A stretch of DNA of 64,000 nt from NCBI RefSeq assembly GCF_016820515.1, contig NZ_JADHDV010000003.1:142563-206562 (forward strand), in the 5' to 3' direction. The stretch comes from Pseudoxanthomonas beigongshangi (GTDB lineage Bacteria; Pseudomonadota; Gammaproteobacteria; Xanthomonadales; Xanthomonadaceae). The translations under genes and the position numbers were made by a program. Under the pieces are notes generated by a model. The model worked only from the letters and a program-made list of their open reading frames with translations. It had not been told where the DNA came from and searched no databases. Shown piece after piece: positions 47,430-61,727 of this stretch; positions within the stretch are counted from its first letter, which is position 1; each line of letters opens with the position of its first letter.

Positions 47430-50400
47430 ATGTCCGGTTCCACCGTTGTCCGCCGCACCCGCCTCACCCTTCGCCACGGACTGGCCCTGACCGCCCTGCT
47501 CGGGCTTCCGCTGGCGCAGGCCCAGCAGCCGCTGCCGCCGCGCGCCGAATGGAAGGCCAGCAGCTCCTCCACGACCAATCCGGCCATGGCCCCGGCGATG
47601 GGCGTCGACGGCAATCCCAAGACCTACTGGGGCGGGCCGTTCTCGGCCGGCCACTGGTACCAGGTGGATCTGGGCCGCACCACGCCGGTGGGCGGCGTCC
47701 TCATCCGGTGGGAAGGCGGCTTCGCCACCCACTACCTGATCCGCTACTCCAACGATGGCCAGCAATGGCAGGACGCGGTGCGGGTGACCGGCGGCAAGGG
47801 CGGCATCGAGTACGTGATGTTCCCGGCGGTGCAGGCCCGCTACCTGCGGCTGGCCGCGCCGGATCGCACGGCCGACTGGGGCGTGTCGGTGGGCGAGTTC
47901 GAGCCGGTCGCGCACGCGCCACGCCTGCGGGGCGTCCTGGGCGATGGCGATACCGACGCGCTGTGGATCGGCCGCGCGGCGCGCGTGCTGGACAAGCGTC
48001 GGCCGCTGGAAATCGAACTGCCGCGCCCGCTGGCGCTGGCAGGCCTGGAAGTCACCTGGAAAACCCCGCCCGGCCGCGCGCGGCTGGAGGCGCGCGGCGC
48101 GGACGGGCGCTGGACGCGGTTGGCCGAGGATCCGAATGTCGAAGGCACTTCTTCCTTTCTCGCCGCACCGGAGGTCCACGAGGCCACCGCGCTGCGGCTG
48201 GTGACCGAAGGCGGCGACGGCGCGATCGTGGATCGCCTGCAGTTGCTCGGCCCCAAGCGGCTGATGACACCGATGCGGCGCTACGAGATCGCCGCCACGC
48301 GCCGTCATGGCGAGTTGTTCCCGTCGTCGCTGAAACAGCAGCAGGTGTACTGGACCACGGTCGGCATTCCGGCCGGCCTGCAGAAATCGGTGTTCGACGA
48401 GTACGGCAACCTGGAAGCGTTCAAGGGCGCGCCGCTGGTGCAGCCGGTCTGGCGCGATCGCAGCGGTCGCGCCGCGGCGGCGTTCAACGCGGATTTGCGC
48501 CACAGCCTGCGCGAGGGCTGGATGCCGATGCCGGCGGTGGAATGGTCGCCGCAGCCGGGGCTGTCGCTGCGCAGCGAGGCCATCGCGATCGAACAGGACG
48601 GCGCGCCGGTCACCCTGGTCCGGTATCGCCTGCGCAACACCGGTGATCAGCCGGTGGACGGGCAACTCTCGCTGCTGACGCGGCCGATGCAGATCAGTCC
48701 GCCATGGCAGAACGGCGGCTTGTCTCCCTTGCATGCCATCGCGGTGGAAGACGATGCGGTGCGGGTGAACGGGCGACGGCTGTTCCAGTCGCTGACGCCG
48801 CCCTCGGGTGGGGGCGTATCCGCATTCGGCGCGCACGGTGAAGGCGAGATCACCCGCCACGCGGCGCAGGGCGATGTGCCCGCGCAGCGCAGCGTGGAGG
48901 ACCCGGATGGCCTGGCCGCGGCGATCCTGCAATATCCGGTGAAGCTGCGGCCCGGCGAGCACCGCGACGTGGTCATCGCGTTCGCGCTGGGCAACACGCG
49001 CCTCGACACCCAGGCCCGGCAATGGCCCGACGCGCCCACGCTGGATCGGGCGGCGTTGACCGCCGGCGGCGATCCCGGCGTCGCCTTCGACACGCTGGCC
49101 GACACCCTCGCGCAGCAATGGCAATCGCGCCTGGGCCGGATCGGCCTGAGCCTGCCGGACGCCTCGCTGGTGGACATGCTGCGCGCGCAGGCCGCCTACA
49201 TGCTGATCAACCAGAGCGGCCACGCGATGCAGCCGGGCCCGCGCAACTACAACCGTTCCTTCATCCGCGACGGCGCCGCCACCGCGGCGATCCTGCTGCG
49301 CATGGGCATGGGCAGGACCGCCCGCGACTACCTGCAGTGGTATGCGGGCCATGCGGTGCATCCGAACGGGCTGGTCTCGCCGATCCTCAACGACGACGGT
49401 TCGGTGAACACCGGCTTCGGCTCGGATCTGGAGCACGACAGCCAGGGCCAGTTCGTCTGGCTGGTCGCGGAAATCGCGCGGCTGGACGGCGGCGCGGCCA
49501 GCGTCCGCGACTACCAGGACGAAGTGAAGCGCGCGCTGCGCTTCCTGCAGGAACTGCGCGAACGCACGATGGTGCCCGGTTACCTGGCCGACCGCGAGGC
49601 GCCGGAACGCTTCCACGGCATCATCGCGCCCTCGATCAGCCACGAAGGCTACCCGGTGCCGACCCACAGCTACTGGGACGACTACTGGGCGCTGAAGGGC
49701 TGGCACGACGGGGCGTGGCTGGCCGAGCAATGGGGCGACCGGGAAACGGCGGTGTGGGCGCGCGAACAATACGCCGCGCTGCGCGATTCGATGTCGGCGT
49801 CGATGCGGGCGACGATGAAATGGAAAGGCATCGACTACATTCCGGCTTCCGCCGATCTGGGTGACAGCGATCCCACCAGCGTCTCGATCGGCCTGGATCC
49901 GACCGGCCAGCAGGACCTGATGCCGGCCGATGCGCTGGCGCGTACCTTCGCCCGCTACCTGGCCGACGTGCGCAAGCGCACGCCCGATGCGCTGTACGCC
50001 TACACGCCGTACGAAATGCGCAACGTGCTGACCTACGTCCACCTGGGACAACCGGCCGAAGCCAACGAACTGCTGCAGGATCTGGTTCGCCATCGCCGTC
50101 CCGCCGAGTGGCAGGTGATCGCGGAGGTCGTCTATTCGGATCTGCGCCACGCGATCTACCTGGGCGACATGCCGCATACCTGGATTGGTTCGGAATACGC
50201 GCGTTCGATTTTCGGCATGCTGATGTACGAAGCCGACGATCACCTGTCGCTGCTGCCGGGTACGCCTCCGGAGTGGGTCGCGGGCGAAGGTCTGTCGGTC
50301 GATGGCCTGCCCACGGCCCATGGCACGCTGAAGATGCGCGCGCGCCGCGAAGGCGGACAGTTGCGTGTTTCGCTGGGCGAGGGACTGCGCGCCGACATGC

Positions 50401-50531
50401 CCGTCATGGTCAACTGGCCCGGCCGCTCCGCGCCGAAGCAGGTCACCGTCGATGGTCGCCGCGTTCGCGATTTCGACGCCAACGGCGTGCGCCTCGCGCG
50501 TCCCTTCAAGGAATTGATCGCGCAATGGTAG
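47430..50531 (+). CDS. Secreted F5/8-type C (discoidin) domain and alpha/alpha-toroid glycosidase-like protein
   Basis: This 1033-aa protein has a signal peptide ending near LAQAQ. A discoidin domain follows (about 40-155, SSSSTTNPAMAPAMGVDGNP through RYLRLAAP). Intermediate beta domains (about 160-560) precede an alpha/alpha-toroid catalytic region (about 585-960, NYNRSFIRDGAATAAILLRM, SHEGYPVPTHSYWDDYWALK and PYEMRNVLTYVHLG). The C-terminus is a short beta domain. Six-hairpin glycosidases act on plant or bacterial glycans; I cannot name the GH family or substrate. The stop codon TAG is provided by the first GTAG repeat downstream. Confidence 0.85.
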   Translation: MSGSTVVRRTRLTLRHGLALTALLGLPLAQAQQPLPPRAEWKASSSSTTNPAMAPAMGVDGNPKTYWGGPFSAGHWYQVDLGRTTPVGGVLIRWEGGFATHYLIRYSNDGQQWQDAVRVTGGKGGIEYVMFPAVQARYLRLAAPDRTADWGVSVGEFEPVAHAPRLRGVLGDGDTDALWIGRAARVLDKRRPLEIELPRPLALAGLEVTWKTPPGRARLEARGADGRWTRLAEDPNVEGTSSFLAAPEVHEATALRLVTEGGDGAIVDRLQLLGPKRLMTPMRRYEIAATRRHGELFPSSLKQQQVYWTTVGIPAGLQKSVFDEYGNLEAFKGAPLVQPVWRDRSGRAAAAFNADLRHSLREGWMPMPAVEWSPQPGLSLRSEAIAIEQDGAPVTLVRYRLRNTGDQPVDGQLSLLTRPMQISPPWQNGGLSPLHAIAVEDDAVRVNGRRLFQSLTPPSGGGVSAFGAHGEGEITRHAAQGDVPAQRSVEDPDGLAAAILQYPVKLRPGEHRDVVIAFALGNTRLDTQARQWPDAPTLDRAALTAGGDPGVAFDTLADTLAQQWQSRLGRIGLSLPDASLVDMLRAQAAYMLINQSGHAMQPGPRNYNRSFIRDGAATAAILLRMGMGRTARDYLQWYAGHAVHPNGLVSPILNDDGSVNTGFGSDLEHDSQGQFVWLVAEIARLDGGAASVRDYQDEVKRALRFLQELRERTMVPGYLADREAPERFHGIIAPSISHEGYPVPTHSYWDDYWALKGWHDGAWLAEQWGDRETAVWAREQYAALRDSMSASMRATMKWKGIDYIPASADLGDSDPTSVSIGLDPTGQQDLMPADALARTFARYLADVRKRTPDALYAYTPYEMRNVLTYVHLGQPAEANELLQDLVRHRRPAEWQVIAEVVYSDLRHAIYLGDMPHTWIGSEYARSIFGMLMYEADDHLSLLPGTPPEWVAGEGLSVDGLPTAHGTLKMRARREGGQLRVSLGEGLRADMPVMVNWPGRSAPKQVTVDGRRVRDFDANGVRLARPFKELIAQW

Positions 50532-50842
50532 AGCCGGGCTTGCCCGGCTGCTGTTGTGCGCCAGACCGGACGCCCCGGGTAGCGGAGCGAGCTCCGCTCT
50601 ACGAGGTGTAGAGTCGGGCTTGCCCGGCTGCTGTTGCGCGCCAGACCGGATGCTCCGGATAGCGGAGCGAGCTCCGCTCTACGAGGGTGTAGAGCCGGGC
50701 TTGCCCGGCTGCTGTTGCGCGCCAGACCGGACGCCCCGGGTAGCGGAGCGAGCTCCGCTCTACGAGGTGTAGAGCCGGGCTTGCCCGGCTGCTGTTTCGT
50801 GCCAGACCGGATGCTCCGGGTAGCGGAGCGAGCTCCCCTCTA
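50528..50842. repeat. Four tandem ~80-bp units of paired GTAG-type REP hairpins
   Basis: Units start at 50529, 50609, 50690 and 50770, with spacings of 80, 81 and 80 nt; the array ends at 50842. Each unit contains two imperfectly conserved hairpins. One is GCCGGGC-TT-GCCCGGC, and the other is based on AGCGGAG-CGAG-CTCCGCT. Both begin with the GTAG/CTAC tetranucleotide of SMAG-like REP elements. The array fills the whole gap between two converging genes. Its first GTAG gives the TAG stop of the glycosidase, and its last (as CTAC on the plus strand) gives the TAG stop of the hydrolase. Confidence 0.9.
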
Positions 50843-52039
50843 CGGGGTTGCGAGGCGTTCCTCGATGGCCGAGAACGCCGAACGTCCCCCGGCGCGCGCT
50901 TCGGGAACGCCGGTGACGAAGTAGGCCACGCCCGTGCCGGTCACCGGATCGACCCAGAGGCCGGACAGCAGGCCATAGGCCGAGCCGGAATGGCCGAAGC
51001 GTTCGATGCCATCGCCGAACGGATCGTCGTGGCATCCCTCGCGCGGCGTCGCCAAGGTCTGCACCGCCAATCCGTAGCGACAGAAGAAGCCGCGTCCGCC
51101 CTGCCCGCTTTCGTCCTCTTCCGACGTCAGGCCGGTACCGGGTGAATAACGCCACTGCGGTTCCACCAGGGTACGCACCGATTCCGGACGCAACAGGCGG
51201 ACCCCGTCCACCTCGCCTTCGGACAGCAGCAGGCGGCCGATTTTCGCCAGCCCGTTCGCCGAGATCCGCAGGCCTCCCTGCGGCGAGAACAAGGCGCCGT
51301 TGTCGCCGGCCCGCCATCGCGCCAGATCGCAGCTGCCATCAGCGGCAGGGACCACCGGGCATTCCGGCCGGTGCCCGCGATTGTCGTCACGTACCGGCTG
51401 GCGGCCCTCGTCATACAGCACCACGGCGCGTGCGGCGGTCGCGTCATCGCAACTGGCCCAGTTGAAGCATCCATCGATATCCAGCGGCAGCAGCACCAGG
51501 CGCTGCATCAGTCTGTCGAAACGCTCGCCCGTGGCCTTTTCCATCACCGACGCGACCAACGGAAAATCCAGGTTGGCGTAGCGGAAAAACGTGCCCGGCG
51601 CGTGTGCCGGATCCCAGGCGCGCGGATCGGCCAATACATCCTGCAACAAGCCGCCCAACGGCACCTGGTAGTAGCCCGCCGCGTCGGTCAGGCCGGCGCG
51701 GTGCGAGAGCAGCAGGCGCAGGGTGATCGGTGTATCGGGGAAAGCCGGGTTGCGCAGCCGCCATCCCAGCCAGCGCGACACGTCGGCATCCAGATCCAGT
51801 TGCCCCGCCTCGACCAACCGCATCACTCCGATGGCGGTGACCAGCTTGGATATCGAGGCGATGCGCACCGGATCCGCTGCCGTCACCGCGCGGTTCGCGG
51901 CGATGTCGGCCAGCCCGCGCGCATCGGTGGCGGTGATGCCTTCGCGATCGAAGACCACGCGGACGGTGGCGATGGGCTCGTTGGCATGCAACGGCATCGC
52001 GGCAAGCAACACCCCAAGCAGAAACCCGGTACGCACCAT
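50840..52039 (-). CDS. Serine hydrolase of the beta-lactamase family (class C/PBP4*-like)
   Basis: This 399-aa exported protein has a signal peptide ([14 protein letters not shown]). The active-site SxxK is in [10 protein letters not shown], the YxN motif is YAN in FFRYANLDF, and the third box is HSGSAYG. The family includes D-aminopeptidases, esterases and beta-lactamase-like proteins. Antibiotic resistance cannot be inferred. AGGAG is 6 nt before ATG 52039; the ATG at 52042 is too close. Its last codons run into the 80-bp repeat array, which contributes the stop codon. Confidence 0.88.
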
Positions 52040-52268
52040 CATGCTCTCCTGTGAAATCGGGCGGCCCATGCGAGCGGGCCATGCAACGCCTGCCGCGCCA
52101 TGGGTTGAAGCCTACTGCATCGCCTTCCGGCAGACGACCGCCACGGCGGTGAACCGGAACACCGCGTGGTGGATGGCGCGCCGTTGACGCGGCGCGTCAT
52201 CGCCAGCACTCGATGCCGTGCGGCGAGTCGCGAACGAAGGCGACGGGCGTCGTGTTCTAATCCACACC

Positions 52269-61050: not shown

Positions 61051-61662
61051 AATCCCCCTTGGTCCCCCTTTTTCAAAGGGGGAAGTGAAAGCGGGTTTCC
61101 AGGCAATCTTACAGCTGGGATAGCCCCCTTTTAAAAGGGGGCGGGCACCTGCGAAGCAGGTGACGGGGGATTTGCTTTTGGCGCCAAAGCAAATCCCCCT
61201 CAATCCCCCTTTTGCAAAGGGGGAGGTAAAAAGCGGGTTTCCAGGCAATCTTGCGGCTGGGATAGCCCCCTTTTTAAAAGGGGGCGGGCGCCTGCGGAGC
61301 AGGTGACGGGGGATTTGCTTTTGGCGCCGAAAGCAAATCCCCCTCAATCCCCCTTTTGCAAAGGGGGAGGTAAAAGCGGGTTTCCAGGCAATCTTGCGGC
61401 TGAGAATAGCCCCCTTTGAAAAAGGGGGCGGGCGCCTGCGGAGCAGGTGACGGGGGATTTGCTTTTGGCGCCGAAAGCAAATCCCCCTCAATCCCCCTTT
61501 TTCAAAGGGGGAGGCAGAAGCGGGGGTCCAGGCAATCTTGCGGCTGAGAATAGCCCCCTTTGAAAAAGGGGGCGGGCGCCTGCGGAGCAGGCGACGGGGG
61601 ATTTGCTTTCAGCGCCAAAAGCGAATCCCCCTCATTCCCCTTTTTCAAAGGGGGAGGCACAA
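61051..61662. repeat. Tandem array of a 144-bp unit (four copies plus a partial fifth)
   Basis: Units begin at 61051, 61192, 61336, 61480 and 61624. Spacings are 141, 144, 144 and 144 nt, and the last copy stops near 61662. Each unit contains stable hairpins: CCCCCTTT...AAAGGGGG, CCCCCTTT(T)...AAAAGGGGG and an outer AATCCCCC/GGGGGATT pairing, with a GC-rich middle (GGCGGGCGCCTGCGGAGCAGG). Copies 2-5 are near-identical and copy 1 is the most diverged. No gene is present. It looks like a REP/MITE-type element amplified by slippage or recombination. Confidence 0.88.
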
Positions 61663-61727
61663 GCAGCGCTGACATAACCTCTTTGCACCGGGCCAGTGGC
61701 AGCAACGGCGAAGCATTCCCGCACACC

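Follow-up and report, generated by a model that had tools for sequence, protein, structure and literature searches.

Two converging genes of Pseudoxanthomonas beigongshangi are separated by a repeat array whose outermost GTAG motifs contain the stop codons of both, which raises the question of whether the repeats replaced the original gene ends, brought new stop codons to otherwise intact genes, or settled at stop codons that already existed. We addressed this question in a window of 64,000 nucleotides (contig NZ_JADHDV010000003.1, positions 142,563 to 206,562), which is the whole stretch of DNA analysed and to which positions given without a contig or locus label refer.

An array of inverted REP pairs fills the convergent gap

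An initial annotation described four 80-bp units of paired GTAG hairpins filling the space between the two genes. The array indeed makes up the gap throughout (50532-50839), running from 50528 to about 50848/50849, and the description holds once the unit lengths are corrected to 80, 81, 80 and 81 bp and the end is moved to approximately 50848 (Table 1). Each unit consists of GTAGAGCCGGGCTTGCCCGGCT (a plus-strand REP), a spacer of ~30 nt and the complement of GTAGAGCGGAGCTCGCTCCGCT (a minus-strand REP), with the GTAGs facing outward. TRF analysis of 50528-50848 returned a period of 80 (4.0 copies, 92% match) and a second period of 161 (2.0 copies, 95% match). The resulting eight REPs form four inverted pairs and have the GTAG REP layout, with a GC-rich palindrome behind the 5' GTAG; the last minus-strand REP has one stem mismatch and its GTAG reaches 50843. 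The REP pattern matched nine times in the 64-kb window, against 0.07 matches expected by chance, and these correspond to the eight REPs plus one overlapping reverse reading within the array. An Rfam search of the array gave nothing above the gathering score (best hit twister-sister, 17.5 bits versus 34 needed).

Table 1. Coordinates of the array and of the genes that converge on it
Feature	Position	Strand	Basis or remark
Gene with F5/8 type C (galactose-binding-like) domain	47430..50531	+	ORF; stop TAG 50529-50531 inside first GTAG
REP 1	50528..50549	+	GTAG gives the stop of the plus-strand gene
Unit 1, 80 bp, inverted REP pair, GTAG outward	50528..50607		RNA fold -44.7 kcal/mol, z -3.4
REP 2	50581..50602	-	REP pattern match
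Unit 2, 81 bp	50608..50688		TRF and unit listing
Unit 3, 80 bp	50689..50768		Differs from unit 1 at one position
Unit 4, 81 bp	50769..50849		Right-hand junction closest to the single unit of relative G036
REP 8	50822..50843	-	GTAG gives the stop of the minus-strand gene
Gene with serine beta-lactamase fold (PF00144)	50840..52069	-	ORF; stop TAG 50842-50840 inside last GTAG

The open reading frames and the REP positions together bear out the proposal that the first GTAG ends the plus-strand gene and the last one ends the minus-strand gene. Both stops read TAG since all REPs carry GTAG as an invariant 5' tag. The names of the two genes are tentative: the plus-strand protein, earlier called a glycosidase, matched PF00754 and PF22633 only and no catalytic family in the Pfam search, while the minus-strand protein matched the PF00144 serine hydrolase family (151.7 bits) and, among the models shown, stayed below every NCBIfam cut-off.

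The array belongs to a GTAG-REP family of the genome

The REP pattern occurs 238 times genome-wide, compared with four occurrences of a reversed control pattern, and is also found in the two nearest relatives, both Pseudoxanthomonas (108 and 48 copies). Other tandem arrays of inverted pairs of this family are present elsewhere in the genome. Where REP clusters have two flanking genes, 40 of 60 are located between converging genes, and just one of 62 clusters was flagged inside a gene.

Two RAYT genes were detected, both above the NF047646 cut-off. The one on contig C1 (G000:C1:29285-29917; L007:1279-1911; 146 bits, cut-off 80) has inverted REPs of the array's family on both sides, and the TAG of the downstream REP also serves as its stop codon (GCG TAG AGCGGAGC). 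The features that define GTAG REP/BIME families with a RAYT (PMC2817692) are thus matched here, and the array is a small BIME of the genome's GTAG-REP family, a known kind of element in a published arrangement. The second RAYT gene (L006:1378-1929, G000:C23) is located some 5 kb ahead of the window, has no array-family REPs in the 3.3 kb examined, and may serve another REP family.

The REPs resemble the GTAG REPs and BIMEs of gamma-proteobacteria, namely the SMAG and Smal1 types of Stenotrophomonas (PMC3733652, PMC2613905, PMC2817692). Shared properties are the 5' GTAG, a 7-bp GC-rich stem and a 4-nt loop, hundreds of copies, inverted pairs, tandem arrays of variable copy number, a preference for convergent gaps and the use of TAG as a stop codon; moreover, the published Smal1 REP, TGTAGAGCCGAGCCCATGCTCGGCT, is close to that of the array. 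However, the REPs described here have their own stem sequence and genus, and one array caps both genes of a converging pair. No mention of Pseudoxanthomonas was found in the main text of the 2013 catalogue (PMC3733652). As in the RAYT/TnpA-REP system (REPtron), a RAYT gene sits between the same inverted REPs in the genome, although here it is on another contig than the array, on whose REPs it may act.

A probable ancestral REP pair at both stops, later expanded

Comparison with relatives indicates how the array arose. In G036, in which the C-terminal part of the plus-strand gene is 96% identical, exactly one unit separates the genes, with both TAG stops and the same C-termini. The copy number of the array therefore varies between relatives, as a check suggested by the initial annotation was meant to establish, with four units in the genome studied here and one in G036. 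Because the single unit of G036 already carries both stops, expansion from one unit to four in this genome is the most likely course, contraction in G036 being a less simple alternative. A scan of genome contigs, among which only G036 and G012 are named Pseudoxanthomonas, revealed no further alleles of the array.

The nearest REP-free relative is G012 (91%), which has TGA at both gene ends. Since G012 carries another gene in the gap (a 409-codon ORF between the converging genes, L010:2536-3765, where this genome has the array), how the REP pair inserted cannot be read off at this locus. G005 has the two genes next to each other, with no REP between them.

If the repeats had shortened the two genes by truncating or eroding their ends, the capped proteins should differ from their homologues at the C-terminus, as the initial annotation had envisaged. 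For the plus-strand gene this is refuted, by an outcome that the initial annotation itself had named as grounds for rejection: all 17 REP-free homologues in the genus terminate at the same conserved Trp as the capped protein, and their stops are TGA in 13 cases, TAG in three and TAA in one. The minus-strand protein ends LATP* in both this genome and G036, about one residue shorter than the many homologues that end in LA plus three residues, which would fit a small loss; yet this tail also varies where REPs are absent (LAAP* in G007), such that the change probably amounts to at most about one residue relative to a naturally variable consensus. Genome-wide, REP-capped genes mostly keep their length. 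We therefore consider truncation very unlikely. The proposal that the repeats inserted at or replaced the gene ends stands in part: REPs lie exactly at both ends and the plus-strand gene has TAG where the nearest REP-free relative has TGA, but no residues were lost from this gene.

The explanation that we favour, at a probability of roughly 90%, is that a RAYT spread the GTAG-REP family of this genome and that the array is a BIME of this family, expanded in tandem, in which one ancestral pair came to lie at both stops and subsequently grew from one unit to four. The sequence, family, copy number and orthologue comparison are observed directly; mobilisation by RAYT and the route of expansion are inferred. 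The REP family would be spread by the RAYT-type transposase system, and one inverted pair would have become fixed in a short convergent gap in the ancestor common with G036, with its outward GTAGs landing on both stop codons. Growth to four units, probably in the steps 1 to 2 to 4, could have proceeded via unequal exchange or slippage. In this course of events the REPs would have taken over or abutted the stops without truncating the genes, whose proteins keep essentially their original ends.

One quarter of facing gene ends stop at a REP

GTAG REP termini are known to often provide a TAG stop (Di Nocera 2013, PMC3733652). To put a number on this for one genome, a census was taken of the genome stretches around 62 REP clusters, with gene ends predicted by a simple codon-usage caller. 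Of 80 predicted gene ends that face an outward GTAG, 20 end exactly on its TAG, always in frame, and no gene continues beyond it. An even spread of the 52 ends that fall within -45 to +4 nt over these 50 positions would place about one at the TAG (binomial tail 7e-21). REP-supplied stops are thus real, non-random and already known. Capping at both ends was seen once, at this locus, against 1.3 cases expected by independence from the 25 converging clusters with outward GTAGs; a double-capped array is what independence predicts, in an arrangement that is common in this genome.

One further capped gene, on the minus strand at L105 (G000:C29:14100-19200), has its last 20 codons (DGEFHRNDIGWRAIAREKPT) tandemly duplicated beside the REP, and encodes 20 residues more than its orthologues in G036 and G012.

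Did REPs bring the TAG or settle at one?

A stop codon shared with a REP could have come with the REP, or the REP could have settled at a stop already reading (G)TAG, the gene's own stop serving as docking site at many sites. Six relatives were searched with the final 60 codons of each REP-capped gene and of 32 controls (genes with a REP nearby that does not overlap). REP-free orthologues of capped genes had TAG in 27 of 66 cases (41%), compared with 20 of 93 (22%) for control gene ends, and the corresponding figures for GTAG were 26% and 13%. Permuting labels over the 47 sites, stratified by genome, gave p 0.006 for the TAG excess, in a test that was small, post hoc and devised after the first cases had been seen. 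Furthermore, several sites have GTAG yet no REP in several relatives, as for the capped gene at L103 (G012, G005, G035 and G024), and the C-termini are mostly unchanged (no length difference for 42 of the 66 REP-free orthologues), which together with the in-frame overlaps also fits docking.

These data suggest that at some sites the TAG may have preceded the REP. Loss of a REP that left its GTAG behind would produce the same pattern, however, and G009 and G012 contribute little or no excess. At the locus studied here the predominance of TGA among REP-free homologues of the plus-strand gene, and at both gene ends in G012, argues against docking; judging from these sequences, the TAG probably came with the REP and replaced TGA. 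Overall, a general preference for existing (G)TAG stops is conceivable but falls short of even odds. A narrower version, that GTAG REPs insert preferentially directly 3' of a pre-existing GTAG, with genes ending G-TAG as natural docking sites, is more doubtful still; if true, it would explain many in-frame abutments of REP and stop without any change of protein.

Likely effects of the array on gene expression

RNA folding predicts strong hairpins on both strands of the array, in keeping with the idea that it works as a bidirectional terminator that replaced an older one. Indeed, the short REP-free gap of G005 contains a near-perfect stem, AAAGGTGGCG...CGCCACCTTT (-28 kcal/mol; L011), which is a possible older terminator later replaced by the REP unit. 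In its intrinsic form, however, the bidirectional termination put forward in the initial annotation is not supported because the hairpins have no real U-tract behind them: a search of the array for a hairpin plus U-tract found one marginal site, on the plus strand only, against 0.4 expected by chance. The G005 stem likewise fails to score as a terminator, and we regard a terminator role for the array as unlikely.

If the array has an effect, it is most likely that of 3'-end REPs in general: protection or attenuation at the transcript end, as discussed in PMC3733652, or slowing of the ribosome at a hairpin-backed stop. As reported in PMC12306157, ribosomes stall in E. coli where a REP lies no more than 15 nt from a stop codon. 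There, as here, the hairpin starts directly after the stop, but the REP sequence is different. A REP hairpin directly following the stop may reduce translation of the capped gene.

The locus itself is an unremarkable case of an arrangement already in the literature. What it offers is a numerical estimate of REP capping for one genome (20/80 facing ends) and a testable hint on REP insertion sites, a still poorly understood step in the spread of REPs.

A separate tandem array is present in the window at 61051-61664, with 144-bp units in 4.3 copies (93% match); it is made of CCCCCTTTTTCAAAGGGGG-type palindromes that are unrelated to the GTAG REPs.
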